Assembly (NCBI RefSeq): GCF_900167335.1 | Contig: NZ_FUXI01000014.1 | Location: 1-64,000, forward strand | Direction: 5' to 3' | DNA from: Pilibacter termitis | Lineage (GTDB): Bacteria; Bacillota; Bacilli; Lactobacillales; Streptococcaceae | Length of the DNA: 64,000 nucleotides | Shown here: positions 2,356 to 36,287 of the stretch, piece after piece | Position numbering within the stretch: the stretch's first letter is position 1 | Layout of the letters: every line of letters begins with the position of its first letter | Made by a program: the position numbers and the translations under genes | Notes under the pieces: model-generated | What the model saw: the letters and a program-made list of their open reading frames with translations, nothing else | What the model was told of the DNA's origin: nothing | The model's database searches: none

Positions 2356-2366
2356 GGGAACTATAA

Positions 2367-2407
2367 AAATCGCAAGAAATGTTCTATGTTTCTTGCGATT
2401 TGTTTTT
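2367..2407. terminator. Bidirectional intrinsic terminator
   Basis: A 13-bp perfect stem (2367-2379 paired with 2389-2401, AAATCGCAAGAAA and its complement) with a 9-nt loop and flanking A and T tracts. It lies between two convergent operons, so it can end both the polyprenyl synthase transcript and the minus-strand sugar operon. Confidence 0.85.
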
Positions 2408-7241: not shown

Positions 7242-8116
7242 GCTTTTTTGCCCCTTTCAGTAATCAATCTTTGAACAAGCGTTACAACTACCACGATAAC
7301 CAATAAGATAATCGCCATAGCACTAGCAAGTCCAAGTTTATTATATCTAAAGGCTGTATTAATCGTTTGAATAACAAATGTCATTGTTCCATTTGAACCA
7401 CCTGTCATGATAAACGGAATATCAAATACAGACAACGAACCTGCTACTGATAAAATAATATTCAAGAAAATAATCGGTTTAATCGCAGGAATAATAATGT
7501 ATTTGAAAATATTCCATGAGTTTGCGCCATCAATTTCTGCCGCCTCATATACCTCTGGATTAACGGATTGAATCGCACCTAGGAAAATCAAAAAATTAAA
7601 TCCGATATATCTCCAAGTAGAAGTAAATGCTAGTGAGATATTATTAATACTTCGATTTCCTAGCCAAAGTTGCTTGAATCCACCTAGACCAATCATGTTC
7701 AGAACAGAATCTAACGTCCCATTTTCCTTAAAGAAATACAGGAAAATAAATCCAATCGCCACCCCATTAAGCAAGTACGGAAAGAAAAGGATTCCTTTCC
7801 AAAAATTAGCGAATTTCACTTTAAATGAAAGCAATGTCGCAAAAAGAAGTGCTAGACCAAGTTGAACAAATCCTGATAGAAAATAATACAAACTCGTTTT
7901 AAATACGATAAAGTAGTTCGGATCTGTAAGGACTTTTTTGTAATTTTCAATTCCAACATTATTATGTGTAGGCGAAAAGCCATCCCAGTCTGTAAATGAA
8001 TATTGAATCATTTTAACGAGCGGGTAATAGGTAAAGGTTAAAAGCAAAGCAACAGGAATAACCGTAAACAAAAAGATTAGAATTCTTTTCTCTGTTTTTG
8101 CTTGAAATTTAAACAT
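7238..8116 (-). CDS. Carbohydrate ABC transporter permease (MalF/LacF type)
   Basis: A 292-residue permease with six membrane segments and the EAA motif EVYEAAEIDGANSWNIFKYIIIPAIKPII. I place the start at 8116 (MFKFQAKTEKRILIF), because a good AAAGGG site precedes it. The longer frame would need a TTG inside the upstream hairpin. It pairs with the MalG-type permease immediately downstream and with the solute-binding lipoprotein upstream. The likely cargo is a beta-linked oligosaccharide, judged from the GH113, GH1 and CE7 genes around it. Confidence 0.9.
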   Translation of the reverse strand: MFKFQAKTEKRILIFLFTVIPVALLLTFTYYPLVKMIQYSFTDWDGFSPTHNNVGIENYKKVLTDPNYFIVFKTSLYYFLSGFVQLGLALLFATLLSFKVKFANFWKGILFFPYLLNGVAIGFIFLYFFKENGTLDSVLNMIGLGGFKQLWLGNRSINNISLAFTSTWRYIGFNFLIFLGAIQSVNPEVYEAAEIDGANSWNIFKYIIIPAIKPIIFLNIILSVAGSLSVFDIPFIMTGGSNGTMTFVIQTINTAFRYNKLGLASAMAIILLVIVVVVTLVQRLITERGKKA

Positions 8117-8147
8117 AAGCAATCCCTTTCTAGTATTGAACAGGTAC

Positions 8148-8177
8148 AAATGAAGCCAGTATATACCAGCCTCATTT
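8148..8177 (-). promoter_or_regulatory. Intergenic hairpin carrying a GTATATAC core between binding-protein and permease genes
   Basis: The minus-strand RNA of this 30-nt segment can pair over its full length with three G-U pairs (AAATGAGGC... against ...GCTTCATTT). No U tract follows. Such stems between a solute-binding-protein gene and its permease genes often limit read-through or protect the upstream mRNA, so more binding protein is made. The centre is GTATATAC (8159-8166), identical to the core of the two promoter operators of this locus. Confidence 0.55.
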
Positions 8178-8192
8178 GCTCCCTGTCACTCT

Positions 8193-9497
8193 TTATTTAG
8201 CGTTTTCTTCTACTGCTTTTGCCCATTTTGTATTGAGATCTTTCATGATGTCAGCAAAACTTTCTTTCGTATTCCCAATCCCCGCATCAACAATACGACG
8301 TTTTTGGTCTTCAGTTGTACCAACACCTACTTCTGAGGCGTTGTTTACGTCTGTAAAGAGGGACTCTTTCCCTGCTGGTGCTGGTTTTTCTTCCATTAAG
8401 ACAACCCCTGCATCAGCAAGACCTTGAAGGGCAACTGGTAAATCTGCACCTTTCACTGCTGAAAGACCACCATTGACTTCTGCATAATCTGATTTATCAA
8501 CCATCCAATCTATAAACTGACGTGCTGCTTTTTTCTTCGCATCAGATGAATTTTTATTGATACCGTAGTTGTAATCGCCACCAATTGCTAAATAGGTTTT
8601 TCCATCTACTTGATTTGGAAATGCTTGGAATGTTACATCGCTATCATTGTCTTTATTATCATCTGCATCTTTAAGTTGTGGAATCGCCCATGAACCAAGC
8701 AATAAGCAACCAATTTTCCCATTAGCAAAATCAATTTTAGATTGTTCCCAATCCGTTGTTGTAGGATCATTTTCAATTAAACCTTTGTTTGCCAATTGGT
8801 ACAAGGTGTCATAAATTGTCCACATGGTACTTCCTTCTGTAAATGCTTTCGTGTCATTTGCCATATCAAATGTGATACTTGGATTCCCTGAAACACCTGC
8901 ACGAATGAAATCCCAGTTAGAAAGCACCCAACCTGCTGCATAGTTTGTATAGAAAGGTGTCACACCATCTAATTTTTTCTCCGCTTCCATTAATTTGATA
9001 AAGTCCGCCGTTGTTGTAGGAAATTCCTTATAACCTGCGTCATTCATGACTTTCTTATTTACCAAAAATCCAGTTGCGTTTGCTTGAGACGGCAAGCCGT
9101 ATTGAACACCTTCATATTGACGGTCAGCTAAAAGCACATACTTTTCTTCTAAATCTTTCGATTTGCCAAGTGGCTCAAAGAAATTGCCATAATCTTGTGG
9201 CTTAATATCAGCAGGAATCATCAAAACATCACCGTAGTCTTTAGAGTTCATACGAGTTTTCATTTGTCCGCCGTAATCTGTAATCGTTTGAATGTTGACT
9301 TTGATGTCAGGATATTCTTCATTAAATTTCTTAACGTACTTATCCCATGTACCGTCTGCTTGCCAATCAGTCTTGTGGTTTATAAAAGTAATGGAAGTTT
9401 TACCTTCTGCTTCCTCCTCTTTGTTACCACAACCTGTCATCAACAATGCTGAAGTTGCCACGACACCAAGTGTTCCAAATACAGTTTTCAGTTTCAT
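8193..9497 (-). CDS. Sugar ABC transporter substrate-binding lipoprotein
   Basis: A 434-residue extracellular solute-binding protein of the family-1 type. It begins MKLKTVFGTLGVVATSALLM with the lipobox LLMTGC, so Cys23 is lipidated and the protein stays on the outer face of the membrane. Start 9497 is chosen because AAAGGAGAC lies just upstream; a longer frame adds 12 residues with no signal-peptide sense. It is the first gene of the importer operon, followed by the two permeases. Its promoter has an overlapping GntR-type operator and a cre-like site, so it is likely repressed without substrate and by preferred sugars. Ligand inferred: beta-manno- or gluco-oligosaccharide. Confidence 0.9.
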   Translation of the reverse strand: MKLKTVFGTLGVVATSALLMTGCGNKEEEAEGKTSITFINHKTDWQADGTWDKYVKKFNEEYPDIKVNIQTITDYGGQMKTRMNSKDYGDVLMIPADIKPQDYGNFFEPLGKSKDLEEKYVLLADRQYEGVQYGLPSQANATGFLVNKKVMNDAGYKEFPTTTADFIKLMEAEKKLDGVTPFYTNYAAGWVLSNWDFIRAGVSGNPSITFDMANDTKAFTEGSTMWTIYDTLYQLANKGLIENDPTTTDWEQSKIDFANGKIGCLLLGSWAIPQLKDADDNKDNDSDVTFQAFPNQVDGKTYLAIGGDYNYGINKNSSDAKKKAARQFIDWMVDKSDYAEVNGGLSAVKGADLPVALQGLADAGVVLMEEKPAPAGKESLFTDVNNASEVGVGTTEDQKRRIVDAGIGNTKESFADIMKDLNTKWAKAVEENAK

Positions 9498-23847: not shown

Positions 23848-25107
23848 TTAATGATTATCTTCTAGCCTTTCTAACAATAATTTATTTTGATCATCGTAGT
23901 AATTTAAATATTTCTCATCTAGCTTGAAAACCACTAATAGTAATTCTCTACAAGCCTTTACCGCTCCATTTACATTCTTCAAATTCTTCTTATCAAAACC
24001 ATCCAATCTGTGTGCAACATTATTACGAAGACCATTAATTTGTTGAATCTTGTTTAACTTCTTTCTATTCGAGTCTTCAGGATATAAAAATTTTAAAATA
24101 TTCATGTATATTGGCAAACTCAATATTGTACTTTCCCGAAATTCTTCATACCCTTTTTCCCTCGACATTCTATCAAGATTTTCCTTAATTTTAGGAAAAT
24201 CTTGAACGTTAAGATAAGGCTTATCTTCTTTCACTATAATCAAATTAGATTGTTCCTCATTAAAAAAACATTCTAAAACAAACTCCGCAAAACTCTTTAC
24301 TCGAATTAACACTTCTGCAACTTCGCCACGCTTATGCTTCAAATCAATTAACAGATAAGCATTCAAAGATTTTTTTATCTCCTCTGGAAATTTCATCTTT
24401 TTAATTTTTTCCGGAATGGACTGCGTTTGAATATCGTTTTTTAGACATTCCAACTCTTTCAATAATATTTTTCTCGCTGGTATTCCTTTTTCTTTGTGTA
24501 TTAACTGATAGGCAGCACAATAATCATACTCCTCAATAAATTGTCGTAACTTCCTCTTTAAAAGAGCTTGAGAAAAGTTCACTCCCTCATCTTCTACACA
24601 ACGATTCTCAAAATCTCCTTGATTATCAAGATTCGTTTCAATTAAATCTTGAATATCCTCTTTATTATCATGTCCAACACCCTCATTTGAGTTTTTGACA
24701 GGAGTTGCCACTTGAATCGCTTGTGTGTTCATCTCCTCAATTCGATTGATTGCAAACATTGCACTAATCACTTGAGGCGTTGCACTTGAAAGGTTCAGCA
24801 AAATCTCAACATCTTCTGAAAACGTCTGTCTATATTTTGTAACTATACTCGAAATTTGTTCAAACATTTTATCAAATAGAAAAACTTCACTGTTTTTCAA
24901 TACATGTTCTTCTTGCAATATTTCTGGTTGATAATGAGCAATCCCATTCAGAGCTTTTACAACATTCTCATGTTTCGCTAGTGAACGCTCACTATGAATA
25001 AGAATAATTTTCTCTGGACGATAAACTCTCGCAATATGAAGAATTCCACCATCATGCAAATTACGGATTGGATCTGTATCTCCTACACAAGTGATTAAGC
25101 ATCTCAT
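23848..25107 (-). CDS. csm6: Csm6, CARF-HEPN cyclic-oligoadenylate-activated ribonuclease
   Basis: A 419-residue accessory RNase of type III-A systems. The N-terminal CARF domain opens MRCLITCVGDTDPIRNLHDGGILHIARVYRPEKIILIHSE and has the NLSSATPQVISAM ligand region. The C-terminal HEPN domain has the R-X4-H motif RNNVAH (R361, H366). It would be turned on by cyclic oligoadenylate made by the Csm1 Palm domain and cut RNA without sequence choice. The start overlaps the csm5 stop by 4 nt. No separate ring nuclease gene is seen, so self-limiting CARF activity would have to end the signal. Confidence 0.93.
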   Translation of the reverse strand: MRCLITCVGDTDPIRNLHDGGILHIARVYRPEKIILIHSERSLAKHENVVKALNGIAHYQPEILQEEHVLKNSEVFLFDKMFEQISSIVTKYRQTFSEDVEILLNLSSATPQVISAMFAINRIEEMNTQAIQVATPVKNSNEGVGHDNKEDIQDLIETNLDNQGDFENRCVEDEGVNFSQALLKRKLRQFIEEYDYCAAYQLIHKEKGIPARKILLKELECLKNDIQTQSIPEKIKKMKFPEEIKKSLNAYLLIDLKHKRGEVAEVLIRVKSFAEFVLECFFNEEQSNLIIVKEDKPYLNVQDFPKIKENLDRMSREKGYEEFRESTILSLPIYMNILKFLYPEDSNRKKLNKIQQINGLRNNVAHRLDGFDKKNLKNVNGAVKACRELLLVVFKLDEKYLNYYDDQNKLLLERLEDNH

Positions 25108-26408
25108 CGTTTCTCACACTCCTTTATAATAAAACAACACTTACCCATTTCATATTCCCTACCATTATATTGAACCAACTTCACATTCCTCGGACTTGCT
25201 CCGTGATGAAGTCTATCTTCTACAACGTAAGCTATATTGTCTTTTCCTTTATTTTTTCCAATCTTTATTACTTGTGGTACACTTTCCCCATCTAAATCTT
25301 TTCTTACAATTCTATTTTCATCACGATAAACCTTTGCTCGTCTAGCCGAAAATTGCCCATCTAAAATTCTTTCTACTTTATCAAAGCGATCTAATTCATC
25401 TAACAAGCTCATCCAAATAGTCTTGGTCAAGAAACCACTACCACCTCCAAGATAAATAGTATTCTTTTTTATATTATCCAAATTTTTAAGTTCAAATTTT
25501 CTAAGATATTCTTTCGTGTACTGATGATTTAAGCTCTTAACAAAAAGTTCAAATCGAGAACTTTCAAATGTCTCCTCTTCTCCACACCTCCGATAGTTCC
25601 TTTTCTTAAAAAATTCAGCTAGATTCAGTGCAACTTCCTGATCTTTATAAACGCTTGTATCTATCGTAATAGAGAACTCAACTTCCACCTCTGGTTTTAT
25701 CGCTTGACGAAATGTTGAAATCTCATGCCCATTATCGCCCTCTCTAGTCCCTTTGCCTAATTTATCAAACTTTTGAACCATAATTAAACTTGATTTTTTC
25801 AGCGGTTTACTATCAGAAACAATGACTCCTTTCATGATATCGTACTTTGCATCAGGTTCGTTTTTCCCATCTAAAATCAGAGTTTGTAAAAATTGTCGTG
25901 TAAATTCTTTATCCGACTTTTCTTTTAAAGAAAGTTCCATCATTTTCCGAATTTCTTCAGGATTTTCTTTCCTTTTTTCAACTATCAAATACTGCAAAAT
26001 AATATTTCGCAATGCTCCTTTCAGCGAGCTACCTGGGATATAAGGATTCCCGAAAGGGTCTTTGATTTGAGCGGCAACTACATTCATTCTTGGTAAAATT
26101 AATTTTCCTTGTTTATTCTTTTTAAGCGCCCAAGGATAACTACTCGAAATCTTAGAAATAGCTTTTATTTTCTCTTTCACTGTCGTTTTTGTTAACAAAA
26201 AGTCACTCAAGGTATCTCCATTTTGCAGAAATCGTTCAAATTCTCGTTCTAAGCCATTTTCACAAAACACCTTATACATTTCCCCTAAATCGGGAAAATA
26301 AATTTTTTGCCCATCGAAAAATACTTCTTTTTTCGAATAATTTTCTCCACTCCCAACATGCACAGGAGCAAGCGTCAAAAGCTTAAATGTATATTGTTTC
26401 AACGTCAT
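25104..26408 (-). CDS. csm5: Csm5, type III-A effector RAMP subunit
   Basis: A 434-residue RAMP protein capping the 3' end of the crRNA-bound Csm complex. It has the opening LTLAPVHVGSGENYSKKEVFF, the glycine-rich G-loop PYIPGSSLKGALRNIIL (about residues 120-136), and late ENRIVRKDLDGESVPQVIKIGKNKGKD. The length is longer than many Csm5 proteins (about 340-400). It overlaps csm4 and csm6 by 4 nt each, so the operon is tightly coupled. In other species Csm5 recruits host nucleases that trim crRNA. Confidence 0.9.
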   Translation of the reverse strand: MTLKQYTFKLLTLAPVHVGSGENYSKKEVFFDGQKIYFPDLGEMYKVFCENGLEREFERFLQNGDTLSDFLLTKTTVKEKIKAISKISSSYPWALKKNKQGKLILPRMNVVAAQIKDPFGNPYIPGSSLKGALRNIILQYLIVEKRKENPEEIRKMMELSLKEKSDKEFTRQFLQTLILDGKNEPDAKYDIMKGVIVSDSKPLKKSSLIMVQKFDKLGKGTREGDNGHEISTFRQAIKPEVEVEFSITIDTSVYKDQEVALNLAEFFKKRNYRRCGEEETFESSRFELFVKSLNHQYTKEYLRKFELKNLDNIKKNTIYLGGGSGFLTKTIWMSLLDELDRFDKVERILDGQFSARRAKVYRDENRIVRKDLDGESVPQVIKIGKNKGKDNIAYVVEDRLHHGASPRNVKLVQYNGREYEMGKCCFIIKECEKR

Positions 26409-27307
26409 CTCTCACTCACCTCCAAATTCAACCAAACAGGTTTTGCAAAATGATAAACTGCATGAGGAAAATCACTTGGGCGAACATCTAAAATTTTCCC
26501 AGCTACATCTTGCGAAAATACCGAACCACTTTTAAACGTAAACGCATCTTGTTTTCGATACGTTTCCTTAACCTCAGTGGAAAACGCAAAACCTGAGTGT
26601 TTCTCTAGCAAATATTTTGCTCCAGTAAGCAACTCATCTGTTAAATTTTCCGGATAAAAATTGCCTAATGCCACAAATTTTCCGCCTTTTTTAGAAGAAA
26701 GGATTGCCGAAAATTCTTCACTTACTTCCTCGCAAGAAAGTTCAAATGAGCCAAAACCACTTTTTCGTTTTCCACCAAGTCCACTATATTGTAGGCTTTT
26801 CATCAATTCTTGGAATAATTCATGTTTCGGTGCAAGGAAATATAGCTGAGTATCTCCAAAATAACTCACACCGACTTGATACGGGTCTACTCCTTTTTTC
26901 GTCTGTTCTACAACTTCAAAAAGTTCGCTTTGTTTCTCAACAAAATCCTCAAGCCTATCTGTCCCATTAAGATACTCATGAAATAAAGAAAAAGGAATAT
27001 ACTTTAATTTTTTCGCTGTCTTTGCATTTTTCCTTCTAGCCTCTAAATCTTTTTCCTCATCTTCAAAATCAGGAAAGCCAATCGGTTTTGGTAGAAAAGG
27101 CTCTCCCTTATATGGAAACGCATCACTCAGCACAAAATCTTCTCGGTCTGCAAGAGCTAAAAACTCCTCCAATTTCCCCATTTTCTTACTTTCTAAAATC
27201 AATGCAGAAAAAAGGCGATTGCTTGTGAAAGTCGTTTCGCTTTCGCTTAAAACTCCATTGCCAAAGTGAGCGTTGTGAAATTGCATCTTATAGATTTTAA
27301 GATTCAT
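26405..27307 (-). CDS. csm4: Csm4, type III-A effector RAMP subunit
   Basis: A 300-residue RAMP protein that binds the 5' handle and joins Csm1 to the Csm3 backbone. It has IYKMQFHNAHFGNGVLSESETTFTSNRLFSALILES, the region FLPKPIGFP, and the C-terminal GLGGKRKSGFGSFEL glycine-rich motif. Start 27307 follows GAGGTAAGGC and overlaps csm3; the longer frame adds seven unlikely residues. Confidence 0.92.
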   Translation of the reverse strand: MNLKIYKMQFHNAHFGNGVLSESETTFTSNRLFSALILESKKMGKLEEFLALADREDFVLSDAFPYKGEPFLPKPIGFPDFEDEEKDLEARRKNAKTAKKLKYIPFSLFHEYLNGTDRLEDFVEKQSELFEVVEQTKKGVDPYQVGVSYFGDTQLYFLAPKHELFQELMKSLQYSGLGGKRKSGFGSFELSCEEVSEEFSAILSSKKGGKFVALGNFYPENLTDELLTGAKYLLEKHSGFAFSTEVKETYRKQDAFTFKSGSVFSQDVAGKILDVRPSDFPHAVYHFAKPVWLNLEVSER

Positions 27308-27968
27308 TTGCCTTACCTCGTTTTTCAAAAATAGAACAATCTATTTTTTCATCACCAAAAACTACCTTTGCCTGAAGGTCTTTAAATTTCACTTTTCCGT
27401 ACCCTCTCGAACCACTTCCTCCTAAAGCGTCCATTTCAAGTAATTCCAAACCATCTAAAATCGTTTGGAAATCCTCTTCTATTTCTTTTTCATCAGAAAT
27501 ATTATAGGCATCATAAATTAATTCAAACCGAAATTCACTCTCACGAATTGCACGCTCGATTTGACGAGGTGTGGCTACTGCTGTAACTCTATTGATTGTG
27601 TTTTCAAATTTCACTTCCGTAAACGTTCTAGCTCCTTTTTTCTCAAGATCTTTATCATTACTTAAAACACAATCTCTAAATAATAGTCTAGCGTCCTTAT
27701 ACTTTTCAACATCTCCAAATAAACGGCGAATTTTCTCGTGATCGCTACTTGGAGAATTGGCTACTCCTTCATTCACTGCTTTTGCAAGTAGTGAACGAAT
27801 CTTCCCTTTCAACGAACTACCTGGAATAATCGGTAAATTACTCAAAGGGTCTTTGATAATCGGCGCATCTGTCGCACCAATCGCTGCAAATGCACTACTT
27901 CCACCGATGTGTAATCCACTTTCCAATACCAGTGTTGCCTCAATTTTAACCTTTGCGTAATTACTCAT
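27297..27968 (-). CDS. csm3: Csm3, type III-A backbone RNase subunit
   Basis: A 223-residue RAMP protein that forms the filament backbone and cuts target RNA every six nucleotides. The catalytic Asp is D34 in GATDAPIIKDP, matching D33 of characterised Csm3. The G-loop LPIIPGSSLKGKIRSLLAK and LDALGGSGSRGYGKVKF-type glycine-rich motif (EMDALGGSGSRGYGKV) are intact. The target-RNA cleavage activity is therefore predicted to be functional. It overlaps csm2 by 4 nt. Confidence 0.95.
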   Translation of the reverse strand: MSNYAKVKIEATLVLESGLHIGGSSAFAAIGATDAPIIKDPLSNLPIIPGSSLKGKIRSLLAKAVNEGVANSPSSDHEKIRRLFGDVEKYKDARLLFRDCVLSNDKDLEKKGARTFTEVKFENTINRVTAVATPRQIERAIRESEFRFELIYDAYNISDEKEIEEDFQTILDGLELLEMDALGGSGSRGYGKVKFKDLQAKVVFGDEKIDCSIFEKRGKANES

Positions 27969-28411
27969 TTGTCATTTCCTCCATTATATTTAAAGTATGC
28001 TACTAAAGCCTCCATGTATCTACAAAAACGAATCAAAGTCACTTTGTTCTTCACTCTGTTTTTCAAAAGGTCAATAATCCCAGCTTTCTTTACAAAATAT
28101 TCTACTGATTTATTCCTACCACTTTGATAAACAAATTGCACTCTCAAATAATTAATTTTATCCGTCAATTCCTCAAATTTTTTCACTTGAATCTCATCAT
28201 ATAAATTCGCTGTTAAACTTAAAAGATTTCTGATTTGAGTAGTGGTTAACTTATTCAACTCCTTTTCTTGACTAAGATTTTCAAAGACTGCCTCCGCCTC
28301 ATCAACATAAGTATCATCTTGAAATTCTTTGATACATTCTTTGATTTCTTCTTTTTTATTCTGCATATTGTTTGGGTAACTTCTTCTTGAATGAGTAAAA
28401 TTATTATTCAT
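27965..28411 (-). CDS. csm2: Csm2, type III-A small subunit
   Basis: A 148-residue, mostly helical protein that lines the belly of the Csm complex. The typical LTTTQIRNLLSLTANLYDEI and KIN-YLRVQFVYQSGRNKSVEYFVKKAGIIDLL segments are visible, and the N-terminal 25 residues are polar and likely disordered. Start 28411 follows GAAAGGACGGAGAAC and overlaps csm1 by 8 nt. Confidence 0.9.
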   Translation of the reverse strand: MNNNFTHSRRSYPNNMQNKKEEIKECIKEFQDDTYVDEAEAVFENLSQEKELNKLTTTQIRNLLSLTANLYDEIQVKKFEELTDKINYLRVQFVYQSGRNKSVEYFVKKAGIIDLLKNRVKNKVTLIRFCRYMEALVAYFKYNGGNDK

Positions 28412-30713
28412 GTTCTCCGTCCTTTCTTGTTTCGTAAATATAAAGCATAATCGCACATTCTAACTGTTCTGCATTTTCCTTGTCATCAAACCAAGTCTTG
28501 AATTGTTCCTTAAACTCTTTAAAAAGCTTTTTGTCATCCTTTTTCATAGAATCTTCTAGCCTTGCTAAAAAGTAAGCTAGTCTTGCAAACGTAATTCTCT
28601 CCTTTTCATTTCTTTCTCGAATTAATGACAACAACTTATAAATAAACGCTTTCCCTTTTTCATTCTGATTGTTAAAGAAATTGCGAATAAACGGCAATTT
28701 TTCATTGTAAATTTTCTCTACAAATAGCTCATAGGAATACGTGAATTTACTAGAAAAAAGAGCAATTCCATTCTTATTATCCACCCCTTTCGCACTCTCC
28801 TCCAACTCCCCAGTCTGATGTGCCAAAATATTAACAGGCGTTTTCCCGCCAAATATCCCAATACCACTTGATAAACTCAACTTGTGGTTCGAGAATGTTT
28901 TCAGCTCGTCATCTAGCTTGATCGCAAAATCTATCACAGACTTCCATTGTCCAATCGCAAACACATCATCGCCACCAGAGTAGACAATGGTAACCTCATA
29001 GTCTTTGGCAAATTGGTTCATATAAAGTTTGAAAAACTGACTCATCACTCTGGAAAATGTCGCCGTTCTGGAAAGCGTTTGAAACTTTCCGCCATTTTGT
29101 TTGGAAAAACCTATCATAAATCCAAGTCCTAGATTATCCACATCACAACGCAAAACAGCCAATCGCCGAATCCCAAGTTTCTCATTTTCTCTAATAACCG
29201 TTTCCATTTTTGCATATTCGCCAATATCTTTTTCACTCGCATAATCCGCCACCCAAATGTGTGTCCCGATACTTTCACCTGTTGCAAATTGATTTTTTAC
29301 GTAGATTTTTCCTTTTACCTCACCAGCCTTTATAGCTTTCTCAGATACCACTTTCAAAAACTGATTTTTTCCGACTTCTAACCCAAATTGTTCATTCAGC
29401 TCAAAATATTTTTCTTTCTGAATATCCTTAGAAAATTTTTCCAAGTTCTTGCACATTTGACAAATAGAAGTTTCTTCCTCGTCCACTTCTGGTAAATTGT
29501 CTATACTTCGGCAAACTCGACACTCTCGACCTTCTTTTTTGCCTCCACGATTTAGTTTTTCAATCGTTTCCGCATCATAGCGGTGCAATTTCTTCTCTGA
29601 AATCTGCTTGCTTACCTTTCGGAAAATTTTACTATATTCCTTTGGATCATTGCCTTGCATTACTTTGTTGGCACAAAAATGAGTATAACCAAACGCAAAA
29701 TACAGCTTGGCACCAAATGTTTCCATAAGCCACTCATTCATCTCTTGACCAACTTTTTCTATCGCTGTTCTTGCAAACTCTGTATTGGGCAAAATAATAT
29801 ACGCATGACCACCACCAGAATAAAGCAAGTTCGCTCTTGTAAGAGAGTTTTCCCTCAGCAAATTATCCACTGCAACTTCTGCAATCATCTCCAAATAAAA
29901 CGAACGACTTCTAAGCTGTTGTTGAGCCCCGCTGCTGACAATCGTGTAAATGAAGTCTTGAATACCAGAAAGATCGAAACTGTAAAGTAAAAACGCCTCT
30001 TCTTCGTAAAATTCCTCTGCCTTTTCAAAGAATTTTTCTTTGTAATCAGTGATTTCTTTCTCCTTGGCATATTCATAAATCGCATTGGCTATGGCTGCGG
30101 TTAACTTCATGTGGTCGTATAAAGAAATGTCTGCAATTTCCTTTGTATTCGTTGAACTTGGCACAAATGATAACGTCCCCTCAAGCATATTTAATAAAGA
30201 GTCTGCATACTTTTCTTCAAACTGAATTTTTGTAAGTGTATCCTTTATTTTCGTCACAATTCCCGCATAATCTCCTTGAGAAAATTTATGATTTTCTTCT
30301 CTTGCTTGGTTATATTCTTTCGTATCATCAAGCATGACGGGCTTGTAATATCTTTCAGTTGTTTTTTCACCAAATGTATTGAAAATATCTTCTTGGTTGG
30401 TATAAGTATCCCAAGAAATATTTCCTTCTTCCTCTGATTCTCTTCTATCCACTCCGCTTGCAATATTGTCAGCAATATACGTGATATACCCCAAATCATT
30501 GTCTGCAATTTTGCTCTGAGAAATTTCTTGATAATGATGATGTGCTACACTCGTTAAAATCTCTTTATTCTTCGTATAATCTTTTAAAAAGTCGCACCCT
30601 ACTTTGCTATGCCGTACTTTTTCACCTGTCGCACGTTGCACCACTTTTCCAATATCATGCAAAGCCGCACCAAAAAATAAGGCTACCTGTTTTTCTTCCA
30701 TTTCTTTTACCAT
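28404..30713 (-). CDS. csm1: Csm1/Cas10, type III-A signature subunit
   Basis: A 769-residue Cas10. The N-terminal HD nuclease motif is ALHDIGKV (H19, D20) with a further HHHYQE-type region, which cuts single-stranded DNA. A zinc-binding region CRVCRSID...CQMC lies near residue 400. The second Palm domain has the cyclase motif SGGDDVFAIG (GGDD at 580-583), which makes cyclic oligoadenylate from ATP. Both activities look intact, and Csm6 is the matching effector. The start follows GTAGGTGTAAT, 14 nt after the cas6 stop. Confidence 0.96.
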   Translation of the reverse strand: MVKEMEEKQVALFFGAALHDIGKVVQRATGEKVRHSKVGCDFLKDYTKNKEILTSVAHHHYQEISQSKIADNDLGYITYIADNIASGVDRRESEEEGNISWDTYTNQEDIFNTFGEKTTERYYKPVMLDDTKEYNQAREENHKFSQGDYAGIVTKIKDTLTKIQFEEKYADSLLNMLEGTLSFVPSSTNTKEIADISLYDHMKLTAAIANAIYEYAKEKEITDYKEKFFEKAEEFYEEEAFLLYSFDLSGIQDFIYTIVSSGAQQQLRSRSFYLEMIAEVAVDNLLRENSLTRANLLYSGGGHAYIILPNTEFARTAIEKVGQEMNEWLMETFGAKLYFAFGYTHFCANKVMQGNDPKEYSKIFRKVSKQISEKKLHRYDAETIEKLNRGGKKEGRECRVCRSIDNLPEVDEEETSICQMCKNLEKFSKDIQKEKYFELNEQFGLEVGKNQFLKVVSEKAIKAGEVKGKIYVKNQFATGESIGTHIWVADYASEKDIGEYAKMETVIRENEKLGIRRLAVLRCDVDNLGLGFMIGFSKQNGGKFQTLSRTATFSRVMSQFFKLYMNQFAKDYEVTIVYSGGDDVFAIGQWKSVIDFAIKLDDELKTFSNHKLSLSSGIGIFGGKTPVNILAHQTGELEESAKGVDNKNGIALFSSKFTYSYELFVEKIYNEKLPFIRNFFNNQNEKGKAFIYKLLSLIRERNEKERITFARLAYFLARLEDSMKKDDKKLFKEFKEQFKTWFDDKENAEQLECAIMLYIYETRKDGEHE

Positions 30714-30727
30714 ATTACACCTACTTT

Positions 30728-31474
30728 CTATTTGCTCACCAACTTAATTTTTCCCATGCCCATAGAGGATTTAATGCCTACACCAGAATATTCAGCGAAA
30801 GAAAACAGCATGAAAATATAATTTTTCAACGTCTGATTTCCGTTAACAGAAATCGTCACTTCCCCCTCAAATGCTGGTATTGACGACTGATGCACCTTGA
30901 AATACTGGCTTTTCGTTCGATACGAAGTAACTCTCGCTCTACTCTCAAGCTCTTGTAACAAATGTTCATCAACTTCCTTATCATTTTCATTTAAAGCCTG
31001 ATATTTCCGCATCGCACTCTGAATAAGAAGTCGAATGTCTGGGAAAAAAACATACTCTCCTTGCGATTTAAACGATGTCGGAGATAAAAAGGAAATTGAA
31101 AATTTACTTGGTGCCTCCTTTTCATAAAAATTGCGACTTAATTTTTCTATATTATGCACCTCTTTCTTCTTTTCCTTAATGTTCATCACTAAATCACCAT
31201 AAGAACGCAAAACAATTTCCTTAAAATCATTGTCAAAAAATATCGTTTCTATTCTTTGAGCCAATTTATCGTCGATGACATTAATTTCCCACTTATACTC
31301 CTCATCTATTCGGCTAACCCATGTAGAATAAGGATTAATTTCCCTTTGGTGCAAACTTTCCGCCACCTCACTCGGAAGATTTTGCATTAAAACACCTTGC
31401 AATTTTGGAGCTAAATCTCTAGGATACAACTTCTTTTTCTTTTCGTTTTCTAATATAAAAGTAAACCTTTTCAT
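30728..31474 (-). CDS. cas6: Cas6 pre-crRNA endoribonuclease
   Basis: A 248-residue Cas6 that cuts within each repeat to release crRNAs. It has a tandem ferredoxin-like layout, with the C-terminal glycine-rich loop EYSGVGIKSSMGMGKIKL as signature. A candidate catalytic His lies in the N-terminal half (SLHQREINPYSTWV). It is the first gene of the minus-strand csm operon. Its promoter lies about 140 bp upstream, and the leader between carries one hairpin repeat. Confidence 0.92.
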   Translation of the reverse strand: MKRFTFILENEKKKKLYPRDLAPKLQGVLMQNLPSEVAESLHQREINPYSTWVSRIDEEYKWEINVIDDKLAQRIETIFFDNDFKEIVLRSYGDLVMNIKEKKKEVHNIEKLSRNFYEKEAPSKFSISFLSPTSFKSQGEYVFFPDIRLLIQSAMRKYQALNENDKEVDEHLLQELESRARVTSYRTKSQYFKVHQSSIPAFEGEVTISVNGNQTLKNYIFMLFSFAEYSGVGIKSSMGMGKIKLVSK

Positions 31475-31485
31475 TTTTTCACCTC

Positions 31486-31594
31486 TTCGCTTTTCTTATT
31501 GTCTAGCTGTGAAGTGCAGGATTTTGGTCGCTGTTCGCATTGCCATGACTCACTACGACAAACTCCTGAACGCCACTCTCCGCTTTTCTAAAAT
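31486..31594. repeat. Shortened hairpin repeat in the likely 5' UTR of the cas6-csm operon
   Basis: The linker is CGCTTTTCTTATTGTCTAGC, then GAAGTGC and GGATTTTG arms, a shortened middle without the 8-bp apical stem, CAAACTCC, and GCCACTCTCCGCTTTTC. The inner pairing has one mismatch or G-U pair; the outer pairing is weak. It lies between the -10 box (31618) and the cas6 start (31474). Confidence 0.72.
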
Positions 31595-31617
31595 ACATGC
31601 TAATAGTGTTTTGTTTA

Positions 31618-31647
31618 TTATACCAAAAAAATAAGAAATATGTGAAG
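31618..31647 (-). promoter_or_regulatory. Promoter of the cas6-csm operon
   Basis: Minus strand: -35 TTCACA (31642-31647), 18-bp spacer, perfect -10 TATAAT (31618-31623). Transcription would start near 31611, giving a leader of about 137 nt that contains the hairpin repeat. Confidence 0.72.
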
Positions 31648-31756
31648 TAATTTGGGAAATGTATAGGAAAAATAAGAGAAAAGTTTTTCCATACTGAATT
31701 GAATCCGTACGGAAAAAGCTCCGTTTTTGATGCTTTTAAATTCTTATTCTTTCAGC

Positions 31757-32037
31757 TCAAATATCTTCATTAGGAATAGTGGTATTTGGAACTCCCTCGC
31801 GATAATTTTTTTGCCCTGCTCCACCGAGTTGATGATTCATTTTTCTCAAATAAGATACTTCATATTTTCCATATCGTTTCCAAACAAGCATATCTACTCG
31901 CCATTACCATTTCTATCCAACTCTTTCAAGCGAAATTCATCGAGCGTTAAGTTTTCAACAATAACCTTTGAGAGCATGGAAGTGACTGAAGATTTATTTC
32001 TATCTCGTCTCATAACAAACTCAAATTTATTTTTCAT
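31757..32037 (-). pseudogene. Small unknown gene broken by a 2-nt frameshift
   Basis: The minus strand reads MKNKFEFVMRRDRNKSSVTS...LDEFRLKELDRNGNGE and then hits TAG. Shifting by two bases near 31893-31897 continues YMLVWKRYGKYEVSYLRK...REGVPNTTIPNEDI to TGA at 31757. Together this is a 92-residue basic protein, and 281 nt equals 93 codons plus 2. I do not recognise the family. The break suggests decay at the edge between the CRISPR locus and the conjugative element. The rest of the 31648-32223 gap shows nothing else. Confidence 0.55.
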
Positions 32038-32223
32038 TCATGAGTTGTTTTAATTTACTTAATGTTCACTGTACCTCTTTTTGAACCATTTTTGTAACAT
32101 TTTAGATGAGATATATCAAAAAAACCGGCTGTATACTTTTTGATAAGGATAAGGAAATAAACACTTACTTTGAATAAATTACTTCAAAACAAAAAAACTT
32201 GGAGCAATCATTCAAATAGTTCT

Positions 32224-32254
32224 TTGACAAATTAATATGCAACAAGGTGATAAT
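32224..32254 (+). promoter_or_regulatory. Promoter of a putative non-coding RNA
   Basis: -35 TTGACA (32224-32229) and -10 TGATAA/GATAAT (32248-32254) with an 18-19 bp spacer. No start codon with a ribosome site follows before the terminator at 32440. Confidence 0.6.
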
Positions 32255-32257
32255 CCT

Positions 32258-32440
32258 TGCGGTGTTAAAGTTCATCGAAAGTGAAAAACTTAGGGGTAAG
32301 GTTCGCATGACATAGTTCCACTCCGAATTTTATTTTGTGTGTGCATGGTTGCATTATTTAGGTTCGATTCCTAAGATACACATTGCCTGTTAGTTGGCGA
32401 ATAAGAAGTAATCATAAAAAGTGATTGCTTTTTTTATTTT
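32258..32440 (+). ncRNA. Putative structured RNA with tRNA-like T arm and acceptor stem, ending in an intrinsic terminator
   Basis: About 180 nt without an ORF. Near the 3' half, TTAGG-TTCGATT-CCTAA (32358-32374) is a perfect T arm with the canonical loop. It is followed by GATACAC (32375-32381), which pairs with GTGTGTG (32337-32343) at six of seven positions, and an A in the discriminator place. Only 14 nt separate the 5' strand from the T arm, so D and anticodon arms are absent. Upstream, AGTT/AACT and GGGGT/ACTCC stems are possible. AAGTAATCA/TGATTGCTT (32406-32430) plus T5 is the terminator. The family is not recognised. Confidence 0.5.
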
Positions 32441-32469
32441 TATAGAAAGGTTAAAAAACGCAAACAGAA

Positions 32470-32769
32470 ATGACAAACGAAGAAGAAAAGCAATTCGAGA
32501 AACGGAGTGATATATTTAAAGGAATGTTGAGATTAAAAGTTGATACTTTTAGGGTTTGGAAAGAATTTCATCAAAAAGTATCAAAGAATGTATTTGAAGA
32601 TTTCGATTATACTGTCAAACATTGGAAAAAACAGATAAGATTTTATAATCAATCATTATTTGACGATTATATGAAACGAGTAATTGATAGTTTAATGGAA
32701 GAAGTCAATGAAGATTTTGATAATTGGTATATCGAAAATAAAGAAAGTAAGAGGATAAAAAATGCGTAA
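32470..32769 (+). CDS. Hypothetical protein, first gene of the element
   Basis: A 99-residue, charged, helical protein (MTNEEEKQFEKRSDIFKGML...KKQIRFYNQSLFDDYMKRVIDSL). No known motif is recognised. The ATG lies about 20 nt from the AGAAAGG motif, too far for a normal site, so initiation may be weak or leader-controlled. It overlaps the next gene by 8 nt, which supports both being real. It sits right after the putative structured RNA and its terminator, hence may be expressed by read-through. Confidence 0.6.
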   Translation: MTNEEEKQFEKRSDIFKGMLRLKVDTFRVWKEFHQKVSKNVFEDFDYTVKHWKKQIRFYNQSLFDDYMKRVIDSLMEEVNEDFDNWYIENKESKRIKNA

Positions 32770-33163
32770 AGTAAATGAAAGTATAAGAGATGATTTTCAG
32801 AATCATTCGTTTTATCTTGATTTATTTATTGAAATGAAAGAAAAATTGTCATTTTCATATGCTATGTATAATAGTTATCTAGATGAAATGGATCGTGATT
32901 TGGGGGAGTATTCTACGGGTGATTGGGTGGCTGATGATTATTTGCATTTAGTGCCGAAAGAAGATTATCAAGCTGATTCTGTAATAATGAAAAGATTTGA
33001 AGATTTTTATTTTGAACTTGGCTACTATTATAAAGAAATTCTAGAATATGAGGATAGCTATGAATATTACCGAGCGAAAGTAAATTTTTTTGCTGAACGA
33101 ATAGGTTTTGATAGAGAACGTGAAAATGTTCAAACTTTCGAGATTAATCATTGTATTGATTAG
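32762..33163 (+). CDS. Hypothetical acidic protein
   Basis: A 133-residue, acidic, Tyr-rich protein (EYSTGDWVADDYLHLVPKEDYQAD, YYYKEILEYEDSYEYYRAK). It is translationally coupled to the upstream gene by an 8-nt overlap. High Asp/Glu content is common in DNA-mimic or accessory proteins of conjugative elements, but no family is recognised and no function is claimed. Confidence 0.62.
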   Translation: MRKVNESIRDDFQNHSFYLDLFIEMKEKLSFSYAMYNSYLDEMDRDLGEYSTGDWVADDYLHLVPKEDYQADSVIMKRFEDFYFELGYYYKEILEYEDSYEYYRAKVNFFAERIGFDRERENVQTFEINHCID

Positions 33164-33197
33164 AAAAAAATAAAAAACAATTAAAGGAGAAAATTTT

Positions 33198-33362
33198 ATG
33201 ACAACTATTGTTATTACAGCATTAATCATTGTAGGGATTATCTTTTTATCTGTGTTGACATTGTTTTTGTATTGGTTATCCACAGAAGAAATTCCTTATA
33301 CAGAATCAGTAAGCGAGGCGAAAATTAAAAGACAATATATTGAAAATCTTAGTAGAAATTAA
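33198..33362 (+). CDS. Small single-span membrane protein
   Basis: A 54-residue protein after a strong site TTAAAGGAGAAAATTTT. The N-terminal helix ITALIIVGIIFLSVLTLFLYWL spans the membrane and is followed by a short charged tail ending ENLSRN. It lies between unknown genes of the element. Function unknown. Confidence 0.65.
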   Translation: MTTIVITALIIVGIIFLSVLTLFLYWLSTEEIPYTESVSEAKIKRQYIENLSRN

Positions 33363-33378
33363 TGTTGGGGTAAAGAAG

Positions 33379-33579
33379 ATGAAAAATAAAATAGGTAGAA
33401 AAGTTCTAGCAAATTCAGTTTTACTACAAAAACCGTTTATTTTAAAAATTGAACAAGAGTACAAAAATGTTTATGTAGGGGAAATTATTCAATGCGAGGA
33501 TGTAGATGAAATGAAAGTCAAAGACTACTGTTTTAGAATTGCTGTAAAAAAGAGAAATGTGAGATTTGAAAAGTCATAA
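33379..33579 (+). CDS. Hypothetical small protein
   Basis: A 66-residue protein (MKNKIGRKVLANSVLLQKPFILKIEQEYKNVYVGEIIQCEDVDEM). Start 33379 is preferred to a frame 39 nt longer because GGGGTAAAGAAG precedes it. It is probably a beta-rich cytosolic protein; no family is recognised. It is the last of the four-gene opening group before the tRNA-like RNA locus. Confidence 0.55.
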   Translation: MKNKIGRKVLANSVLLQKPFILKIEQEYKNVYVGEIIQCEDVDEMKVKDYCFRIAVKKRNVRFEKS

Positions 33580-33653: not shown

Positions 33654-33762
33654 ACAAACATAGCTTAAAGAGTAAAGCGTAGAATATACCAGTCTGTTAT
33701 TTTGTAGGTAAATAAAAACAACTTGATATTCTAAGATTGAGGTTTGAGTCCTCCTGTTTGTA
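33654..33762 (+). ncRNA. tRNA-like RNA with enlarged anticodon-position arm
   Basis: The 5' strand ACAAACA (33654-33660) pairs 7/7 with TGTTTGT (33755-33761). Then come TA (positions 8-9), D stem GCTT/AAGC with an 8-nt loop starting and ending in A, G26, and an 8-bp stem TAGAATAT/ATATTCTA with a loop of about 36 nt. A 4-nt variable loop follows, then T arm GAGG-TTTGAGT-CCTC (33739-33753, the fifth pair mismatched) and discriminator A. The spacing is that of a tRNA, but there is no recognisable anticodon loop and no encoded CCA. It is followed by hairpin GAGTGC/GCACTC and a terminator. It is not a standard tRNA. Confidence 0.55.
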
Positions 33763-33809
33763 TGGAGTGCAACCCCTAGCACTCACAACCAGAAGTTTCA
33801 TTAGATTTT

Positions 33810-33841
33810 AGAGGGAGACTCCTCCTCCCTCTCCTCTTTTT
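33810..33841 (+). terminator. Intrinsic terminator after the tRNA-like locus
   Basis: AGAGGGAG (33810-33817) pairs with CTCCCTCT (33825-33832), loop ACTCCTC, followed by CCTCTTTTT. It isolates the tRNA-like RNA from the next gene. Confidence 0.75.
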
Positions 33842-33904
33842 GAGAGAAAACGGTGGTAGTGATTGACAAAATATAAAAAGAAAGACATAATAAAGGTAAA
33901 AAAA

Positions 33905-34529
33905 ATGGAGAAAGTATTAATGGGAACACTTATAAATACTTTATTTATTGTAGTGGCAACGGCATTTGTTAATACTTTTTATTTCAATAAGAAATTTGAA
34001 GTATTTAAAGTTGATGTTGAAAAGCAAAAAAAAGGTATCGTTTATTTATTATGAGGAAAGAGCAAAGTTATTAACGAGTTTATATAAAAATTTGTCTCTT
34101 TATTACTCGGAAATGGCAAATCTATTGACACACTTTGAGGCATTGACAGAACAAGTTTTTTCTAATTCAGATTCAGTTGAAATAATGTATAGAAACATAT
34201 CTATTTATAGAAAACAGGTTGATGAAGAAGTGTTGTACGCACGCTTGTATTTAAATGATGATGAAAGTAATGAATTAATGGTTTTTCATCAAAAGCTTGC
34301 GAGAATATCAAATGGTATAGTTGATATATATTTTGAACATAAAAATCTTCGTGAGGAATACAAGGATAAAGAAAAAAATGATTCATTACAAATTATGTTT
34401 ATGGGTGAATTTTCAGAGGTAGTAAAAAGAAACAAAGTAGAACAAGCATTAGACTTTTTATATGAAGAGGGGCAAGAAAATATTGAAAGTCTGAAAGCTG
34501 TATTAAAAAAGACATTAGTTGAAAATTGA
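33905..34529 (+). pseudogene. Membrane-anchored helical protein, split by a frameshift in an A8 run
   Basis: The frame from 33905 reads MEKVLMGTLINTLFIVVATAFVNTF...FKVDVEKQKK, with one N-terminal membrane helix. After the A8 run at about 34027-34034 the sense shifts by one base into SFIYYEERAKLLTSLYKNLSLYYSEMANLLTHFEALTEQV... to the stop at 34529. The two parts make one plausible coiled-coil protein of about 207 residues. An extra A, a sequencing error, or slippage-dependent expression are all possible. An in-frame TTG at 33863 is an alternative start. The family is unknown, and it is coupled to the next gene by context. Confidence 0.6.
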
Positions 34530-34548
34530 AAACACGGAGGGAAATCTA

Positions 34549-35718
34549 ATGAACACAAAAGAATTTATTCAAACAACAAAGGGGAAAATAGCTATTGGTG
34601 GTGTTGTAGCAATCCTTGCGATTGGTGGAGGAGTATTCTTCAAAGTGCAAGCTGATTATGCACAAGAAGAAAAAGTAAAAACCACAATTGCACAAACAAC
34701 GAAAAATACACAAAATCTTTTAGCAAAGGCAAAAGAACTTTTTGATGAAAAACAAGAATTTTTGAGAAAAGACTTAAAAGCTGATGAAATCAAAGCTATT
34801 CAAAAAGAATTGACTTCAAGCGAAAAGACAGTAAAAGACTTTAATAGCAAGAAATATGAAAAAGCTGTCAATGAATTTACGACTGCTGATAAAGAAGTAA
34901 GCAAGCGAATCAAAAAAGCTGAAACAATGCTTGACACACAAACGAAACTCAATGCGTTATTTACAAAACCTGTTTTAAATGGTAATGAAGTCACAAAAGA
35001 AATCATCATCAAAAAAGACGTAAAAACGGAAGATATTCAAGCTTTAGAAAAACAAAAGGAAAAAACACCTTTTAGCGATAAAGTCGCTGAAATCGTAAAA
35101 AATGCACGTATACAATTTACTGATATCGAAAATGCGAAAAAAGCCCTAGTTGAAAGTGAAAAAGACAAAGGGAATGAAACAAAAGCGAACAACGCACAAA
35201 ACGCAATCAATAAAATCAAGAATCAAGAGGTGAAAAAAGAATTACAAACAAAACTTGACCCTATCAAAAAAGCAATCAAAGAAAAGAAAAAAGCTGAGGA
35301 AGAAAAACGTAAGGCAGAAGAAAAAGCGAAAGCTGAAGAACAAGGTTCAGAAGTTGCGAGCAACGAAGAAATAGCACTTGCAAAAGCAAATGAAACAGGG
35401 CAACCTGTCTACAATGAACAAACTGGAGGTTATGTACAACCGACAACTCCTCAATCTAACGGAGGAAATTCTTCTAACAGTAGCTCTAGTGGTTCAACAA
35501 ACAAACCACAAACGCAACAACCAAGTACTCCTCAGCCACAGCAACCTAAACCACAAGCTCAATTTATGGGGTGGGTTAAAAATAATGGAGTTGTTGTTGC
35601 CTCTGCAACATTTGGAACATGGGGAGAGGCTGAAACATGGGCTAGAGATAAATTTGTAGCTATGACTGACAATGATTGGGATAGTGCTACGAATTTCGGT
35701 GTTACACAATTAAGTTGA
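34549..35718 (+). CDS. Hypothetical secreted or membrane-anchored coiled-coil protein with Pro/Gln-rich linker
   Basis: A 389-residue protein starting MNTKEFIQTTKGKIAIGGVVAILAIGGGVFFKVQA, one membrane helix or uncleaved signal. A Lys/Glu-rich coiled coil follows (residues about 45-260), then a Ser/Asn/Pro/Gln linker (QPSTPQPQQPKPQAQ). A compact C-terminal block of about 45 residues, FMGWVKNNGVVVASATFGTW...WARDKFVAM, looks like a small folded domain. Start 34549 follows CGGAGGG. The layout suits a cell-surface spacer presenting the C-terminal domain, perhaps in mating contact. No catalytic motif is seen, so the role is inferred. Confidence 0.65.
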   Translation: MNTKEFIQTTKGKIAIGGVVAILAIGGGVFFKVQADYAQEEKVKTTIAQTTKNTQNLLAKAKELFDEKQEFLRKDLKADEIKAIQKELTSSEKTVKDFNSKKYEKAVNEFTTADKEVSKRIKKAETMLDTQTKLNALFTKPVLNGNEVTKEIIIKKDVKTEDIQALEKQKEKTPFSDKVAEIVKNARIQFTDIENAKKALVESEKDKGNETKANNAQNAINKIKNQEVKKELQTKLDPIKKAIKEKKKAEEEKRKAEEKAKAEEQGSEVASNEEIALAKANETGQPVYNEQTGGYVQPTTPQSNGGNSSNSSSSGSTNKPQTQQPSTPQPQQPKPQAQFMGWVKNNGVVVASATFGTWGEAETWARDKFVAMTDNDWDSATNFGVTQLS

Positions 35719-35764
35719 TATGTGTTATAATAAAAATATAAAATAAGCGAAAGAGGTGTTTAAA

Positions 35765-35980
35765 ATGGCACAAGCATTAAGGGTGGAAAACCTTCACAAT
35801 GATGAAATTGTTATTCTAAGTAAAAAAGAATATGAACAAATGGAAAAGGAACTTGCTCGAAATAAAGCTAAAATTCGTTTTTTTCAAGAAATGCAACAAC
35901 CTTTAATAGAAATGGTTGAAGGGAAAACAAAATCAGCAAATGAAGTTTTGCAACGTTTGAGAGCAAAAAGATATGATTGA
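35765..35980 (+). CDS. Type II antitoxin (RelB/Phd-like)
   Basis: A 71-residue protein with MAQALRVENLHNDEIVILSKKEYEQMEKELARNKAKIRFF, a short DNA-binding-type N-terminus and helical middle. The C-terminus (ANEVLQRLRAKRYD) would wrap the toxin. It overlaps the downstream RelE/ParE-type gene by 8 nt, the usual antitoxin-first order. Start 35765 follows GAAAGAGGTG. It likely binds and silences the toxin and autoregulates the pair, helping to keep the mobile element. Confidence 0.75.
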   Translation: MAQALRVENLHNDEIVILSKKEYEQMEKELARNKAKIRFFQEMQQPLIEMVEGKTKSANEVLQRLRAKRYD

Positions 35981-36287
35981 GTTTAAAAATGTACGTTTAA
36001 CCCTTACTGCCGAAGATGATTTAGAACGGTTGAGAGATTTTTTGTATTATCAAACAAAATCATACGAAGTACTTCGAAAGTTTGATGATGAAATAGAGAA
36101 TGCTTTAAAAGAAATAGAAGATTTTCCAGAATTATATCCACAGGCTTTTGAAGAAAGTACGATGAGAAAGAAAATTGTTTGGAGATATATTATATTTTAT
36201 GTAGAAGTTCAAGACTACATTTCTATTACTCATATTTTTCATCAAAGCGAAGATTGGTTGAACAAGTTAAAAGAAGAATTGAGTTAA
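35973..36287 (+). CDS. RelE/ParE-family toxin
   Basis: A 104-residue protein: FKNVRLTLTAEDDLERLRDFLYYQTKSYEVLRKFDDEIENALKEIEDFPELYPQ, then MRKKIVWRYIIFYVEVQDYISITHIFHQSEDW. This is the RelE/ParE fold pattern (helical hairpin, then a four-strand sheet with conserved Arg and Tyr). Either ribosome-dependent mRNA cleavage (RelE) or gyrase poisoning (ParE) is possible; the LRDFLYYQT and FHQSEDW blocks lean towards ParE. It is coupled to the antitoxin and ended by a strong terminator. Confidence 0.8.
   Translation: MIEFKNVRLTLTAEDDLERLRDFLYYQTKSYEVLRKFDDEIENALKEIEDFPELYPQAFEESTMRKKIVWRYIIFYVEVQDYISITHIFHQSEDWLNKLKEELS

Follow-up and report, generated by a model that had tools for sequence, protein, structure and literature searches.

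The window, by which is meant the whole 64-kb stretch of DNA that was analysed, comes from a bacterium that its kin place in the Streptococcaceae; it encodes a Rep_trans relaxase (PF02486), TcpC, an FtsK/TcpA-like protein, an AAA_10 ATPase, a lysozyme/CHAP protein and a large SpaA/LPXTG surface protein, and is therefore taken to carry a conjugative element, in agreement with the initial annotation, for which the relaxase, TcpC, FtsK/TcpA-like and AAA_10 proteins are the relevant finds. The RNA site considered here (33654–33762, plus strand) is placed between small ORFs (32470–33579) and the ORFs at 33902/33966 and 34519. The small ORFs include one of 99 aa (32470–32769, plus strand) and one of 66 aa immediately upstream of the RNA (33379–33579, plus strand), whose homologs at another locus of the same genome, referred to as C14, are 58% and 52% identical respectively, the latter lying upstream of the RNA units found there. 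The sequence immediately before 33654 yielded no strong promoter. Downstream lies an intrinsic-terminator-like hairpin with a T tail and a C-rich loop (33810–33832, plus strand; one found against 0.3 expected in shuffles); a terminator had been claimed 50 nt downstream, and it is present at a distance of 48 nt after 33762. It is followed by a predicted sigma-70-like promoter, from which the next unit would be transcribed (33863–33891, plus strand; TTGACA-17-CATAAT, 11/12) and by the ORF at 34519–35718 (plus strand), which encodes a membrane-anchored coiled-coil protein with homologs (51–53% identity) downstream of RNA units at C14 and at a further locus, C30.

Several other features of the neighbourhood are recorded here in their own right. 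At 33902–34529, frames of 63 and 187 aa meet across a run of eight A, and the relative of these frames in genome G008 is a single continuous frame; the split may reflect a frameshift, a slippage site or a sequencing error. A two-gene module, the second gene of which encodes a ParE-family toxin, occupies 35756–36287, and related modules recur at L087 1339–1858 and L088 2377–2914. On the minus strand, a block at 23848–31474, identified by eye, resembles a CRISPR system of type III-A (Csm), Cas6 included, and adjoins the small ORFs of the element; no direct repeat array is present in 31400–32500.

The RNA site reads as a tRNA-like cloverleaf on the plus strand, and the tRNA spacing previously claimed for it was recovered in full from the sequence. 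The acceptor-like closing stem is formed by ACAAACA (33654–33660) and TGTTTGT, with seven of seven pairs Watson-Crick and the two strands (33654–33660 and 33755–33761) covarying in the alignment of related segments referred to as A6; the 3' strand is followed by a discriminator-like A (33755–33762 together), and CCA is not encoded. Between the two halves, TA occupies positions 8–9, and the D-arm (33663–33678) has a 4-bp stem, GCTT/AAGC, and an 8-nt loop, AAAGAGTA. A single G at position 26 leads into an enlarged arm at the anticodon position (33680–33733), whose 8-bp stem, TAGAATAT/ATATTCTA, is as first described, while its loop, given earlier as about 36 nt, counts 38 nt; this arm stands in place of a 7-nt anticodon loop and bears out the claim that a U33-anticodon layout is absent. 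A 4-nt variable region (AGAT) precedes the T-arm (33738–33754), (T)GAGG TTTGAGT CCTC(C), which is supported by fold, sequence and covariation and has a 7-nt loop and an open outermost T-C pair. Immediately 3' of the discriminator is a hairpin (33763–33787) with the loop AACCCCTA. With tRNA numbering as assigned in this analysis, the sequence is compatible with the tertiary partners U8-A14, A15-U48, G18-U55 and U54-A58, and with A at position 19 and U at position 56 an A19-U56 pair replaces G19-C56. The minimum free energy (MFE) structure of 33654–33762 is the proposed cloverleaf, at −22.2 kcal/mol (z −1.9; 7 of 200 shuffles were equally good), with weak inner pairing in the 38-nt loop.

Elsewhere in the genome, the three loci C14, C26 and C30 hold seven diverged tRNA-like units. 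The first lead was a sub-threshold Rfam tRNA match at C14, which turned out to be a tRNA-like unit whose neighbours are homologs of the ORFs flanking the site in the window, and further searching added C14-2, C26-1, C26-2, C30-a, C30-b and C30-c. At C14 the units are flanked by homologs of ORFs 32470, 33379 and 34519, and at C30 a homolog of ORF 34519 lies downstream of them; C26 is situated at the end of a contig, and the gene downstream of its units is out of view. A fourth homolog of ORF 34519, at C36, has no unit upstream, its place being occupied by a P-type ATPase gene. The typical unit consists of a closing stem GCAAGTA/TACTTGC, a variable middle, a T-arm GAGGG TGCAANT CCCTC, one base and a hairpin, and several units carry an additional 5' hairpin. 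The features by which a unit is recognised, namely a 7-bp closing stem on a 5-bp T-arm with a 7-nt loop, a hairpin and a position upstream of an ORF34519-family gene, are all found at the window site.

Conservation is concentrated in the minihelix made up of the closing stem and T-arm. All other units retain the closing stem and most retain the T-arm, the T-stem being poor in C30-a, C30-c and C26-1, and the hairpin right after the discriminator is present in seven of the eight units, the window unit included. The D-arm and the long central arm are far less conserved and vary widely, and a complete cloverleaf with D-arm is clear in the window unit only. C30-a can form a cloverleaf (−14.2 kcal/mol) but strongly prefers another structure as its MFE (−30.5 kcal/mol); its D stem reads GCAA/TTGC where the window has GCTT/AAGC, which amounts to two compensated pairs. 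Terminator-like sites also lie downstream of C14-2 and C30-a, and the sense strand folds more stably than the antisense in seven of the eight units. CCCC occurs seven times in C-rich loops against 1.5 expected, three of the sites being near-identical copies, and these recurring loops give a weak hint of pairing with ribosome-binding sites. At C14 and C26, the tRNA-like units enclose two-gene modules whose flanks are nearly identical while the genes themselves have diverged, a pattern that looks like exchange by recombination.

Kinship between the window RNA and these units was assessed from compensatory change and with covariance models run in both directions. Compensatory changes occur at 5 of the 12 minihelix pairs in alignment A6, a value reached in none of 500 shuffles, for minihelix pieces that had been excised by structure, which favours pairing; G-T wobbles are present within the conserved stems. 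Covariation was thus found among element segments of one genome. A covariance model of the window sequence alone (R1), run with its filters disabled, gave four known units 17.5, 15.5, 15.0 and 14.9 bits; they were its top four matches in 50 kb and, once the site and the reverse complement of the site are set aside, four of its five best in 77 kb, although the individual matches are weak (E 0.1–0.7) and a chance match within the window reaches 17.2 bits. In the reverse direction, a model of six C14/C26/C30 units (R2) does not recover the window site, so the case for common descent rests on position and shape rather than on sequence. The window RNA and the units at C14, C26 and C30 likely have a common origin or answer to a common constraint.

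The earlier suggestion of an RNA class belonging to these elements accordingly holds within this genome, where the acceptor/T-arm shape is shared with compensatory changes. Spread through Lactobacillales plasmids and integrative conjugative elements (ICEs), which had been anticipated, was not borne out: no relative appeared in the sampled family genomes, order genomes or plasmids; in these sets and in phages and viral contigs, nothing was found beyond coding-sequence or chance matches. The large genome sets were searched with strict filters and few candidates scored per genome, and weak relatives can therefore escape detection. DNA similarity searches of plasmids, of phages and of the family gave short, AT-rich chance matches, and those in Lactococcus plasmids adjoin a heavy-metal ATPase gene. 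Short same-genus matches (L003–L006, L009) have no cloverleaf, and two of them (L004, L006) appear coding; the R1 match in G261 (L082) likewise lacks a cloverleaf, an Rfam match at C15 overlaps a coding frame, and the sole exact pattern match in viral contigs (L119) is without the partner 5' stem. R2 matches in G332 and G304 (L183, L184) were judged chance, L183 lying within coding sequence. The sequence upstream of the G008 relative of ORF 33966 holds no such RNA. Protein scans of genome contigs and viral contigs returned no relatives; an HMM search of whole genomes found ORF34519 relatives in 89 of 385, showing the contig protein scans to be insensitive. In the upstream regions of 19 of these relatives, R2 detected no unit and a looser descriptor gave weak matches only.

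The best reading of the site, to which a probability of roughly 0.4 is given, is a structured non-coding RNA of the control region, in which the tRNA-like acceptor/T-arm would serve as a module for folding, processing and stability, with a terminator after it. The RNA would form the 3' part of a transcript ending at the 33810–33832 terminator, between the small-ORF block and the 33863 promoter. Its core would be the acceptor/T-arm minihelix of 7 + 5 bp with a 7-nt loop and a single-base discriminator, accompanied by the D-arm, by the enlarged arm that replaces the anticodon arm and then by the hairpin. RNase P on the 5' side and RNase Z on the 3' side could recognise the minihelix, whereby a small RNA would be released or protected, and the enlarged arm together with the C-rich hairpin loops would be its variable, target-facing part. 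We infer the transcription, processing, stability, regulatory role and targets of the site RNA. A broader proposal, in which the conjugative elements of this lineage would code for a hitherto unrecognised class of tRNA mimics, processed to maturity by host tRNA enzymes and serving as regulators in trans or as decoys, with a freely evolving target-binding arm in place of the anticodon arm, is considered unlikely.

The same position would also suit a cis-acting leader or attenuator, in which the fold, the hairpin and the 33810 terminator govern whether transcription of the small ORFs runs on into the conjugation and pilin genes downstream and no separate small RNA is made. The site lies between the small-ORF block and the ORF34519, pilin and conjugation genes with the terminator right behind it, and in Enterococcaceae relatives the corresponding gap often has a different, structured non-coding stretch of 400–500 nt, which also speaks for control in cis. 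Such large stretches were seen in the syntenic gaps of L046 (4825–5320), L153 (about 3813–4320), L157 and L163. They are closed by a long-range stem of 15–25 bp, and a hairpin loop, ATCAGCRYRRCT (ATCAGC..), is common to four elements and enclosed by differing complementary stems, that is, covarying. In the loci scanned they match no Rfam family; parts of the L046 stretch recur in 513 plasmid records, all but one from Enterococcus (512), and the plasmid matches listed have no annotated feature beneath them. These cases suggest that the gap habitually carries structured RNAs, and that these are of several kinds. One of the Enterococcaceae elements further fits a leader in having an Rgg-type regulator gene and an Anti-Q match upstream: in L153, the Anti-Q match (RF00388; 45.9 bits, cut-off 45) lies upstream of the large RNA at 2849–2945 on the minus strand, beside an Rgg/PrgX-like gene (1457–2398, minus strand). 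Separately, L046, the Enterococcus plasmid pEG002, has a Group I intron (RF00028, 64.8 bits) at 8001–8335, ahead of IS200/IS605 transposase genes. Against a leader, the strong promoter-like site at 33863–33891 follows the terminator, so that the downstream genes need no read-through, and the alternative antiterminator pairing is putative; this explanation is possible, if on the unlikely side.

The relation of the control-region RNA to true tRNAs was examined with standard models. The tRNA check of the locus returned no tRNA call: ARAGORN found 0 genes, tRNA or tmRNA, and the Rfam tRNA model (RF00005) scored 17.8 bits against a cut-off of 29, no Rfam family reaching its gathering cut-off at the site. 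No tmRNA model of ARAGORN or Rfam matches there, and a T-box leader is absent among Rfam matches up to E 10. Of the features of a functional tRNA, the 7-bp acceptor, D-arm, T-arm and tertiary partners are present at the site and an anticodon loop of 7 nt with U33 and anticodon is absent; with ARAGORN silent and RF00005 below its cut-off, the site does not qualify as a functional tRNA. The genome itself has 34 tRNA genes listed above cut-off in the Rfam tRNA search, and a DNA search of it with the site returned short chance matches only. The site is without likeness to these resident genes and hence does not represent a piece of a resident tRNA left behind by integration, as described in PMC9897764. 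A decayed pseudo-tRNA, a former tRNA gene of the element degenerating without function, would account for the tRNA-like features, including most tertiary partners, and for the weak Rfam tRNA score, and is nevertheless rather improbable: the perfect acceptor and D stems, the compensated changes across units and the recurrence at a matching place point to selection on the fold, and similarity to resident tRNA genes is again missing.

It is more improbable still that the fold acts as single-stranded DNA, as a single-strand origin or a transfer-related hairpin. Single-strand origins are hairpin-rich, the relaxase of the element is of the rolling-circle type (PF02486, Rep_trans), and tandem hairpins do lie in non-coding DNA here, but the terminator on the same strand, the G-T wobbles in conserved stems and the greater stability of the sense strand in seven of eight units favour RNA, and DNA origins have no need of tRNA acceptor/T-arm geometry.

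The fold energy of the site is unremarkable, and its improbability resides in the specific geometry. A strict descriptor (seven Watson-Crick acceptor pairs, a T stem with G53-C61, a loop T...A.Y and a span of 60–140 nt), which states canonical tRNA rules but was composed after the site had been seen, has one match in the 64-kb window, both strands scanned, and none in 219 kb of other real DNA. In 11,424 random 64-kb windows, acceptor and T-arm geometry alone matched 689 times (0.06 per window), the addition of the D-arm left 19 matches, and the full geometry, with D-arm and an anticodon stem of at least 5 bp, gave none. The structure at 33654–33762 is genuine and far beyond chance; a chance fold within an AT-rich intergenic region, though the energy is just modestly better than that of shuffles, is very improbable given these counts and the related units at syntenic loci.

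Bacterial tRNA mimics with roles other than translation are, to our knowledge, few. A literature search found no tRNA mimic as a repeated, covarying unit of conjugative elements. Should tRNA enzymes prove to mature the control-region RNA, conjugation genes would come under the control of a tRNA pathway that is essential to the host, and the eight natural variants in one genome would be a ready set for studying RNase P and RNase Z requirements.

Among known systems, the Anti-Q/prgQ region of pheromone plasmids (RF00388) likewise places a structured control-region RNA ahead of conjugation genes, and among the syntenic Enterococcaceae elements L153 has an Anti-Q match, whereas the window has neither an Anti-Q match nor a recognised Rgg/PrgX-type gene, and the RNA shapes are unrelated. 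The tRNA-like domain of tmRNA shares the acceptor, the T-arm and a long arm in place of the anticodon arm; in contrast, the window RNA is matched by neither the Rfam nor the ARAGORN tmRNA model, does not encode CCA and possesses a D stem. ICE integration leaves partial tRNA genes (PMC9897764), which are also tRNA-like sequences tied to an integrating element, but the window has both acceptor halves, no resident tRNA match and an internal rather than an edge site. The pseudo-tRNA of Bacillus cereus known as tRNA-Other is linked to a genomic island, has a Trp anticodon, is poorly aminoacylated in vitro, is not used in translation and has been proposed to contribute a tRNA-like structure to a larger regulatory RNA (PMC3399842). 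The window RNA differs from it in lacking an anticodon layout, in being ARAGORN-negative and in belonging to diverged, partly tandem units; both are tRNA-like elements on mobile DNA or an island, and the module role proposed for the one is comparable to that proposed for the other (PMC3399842).
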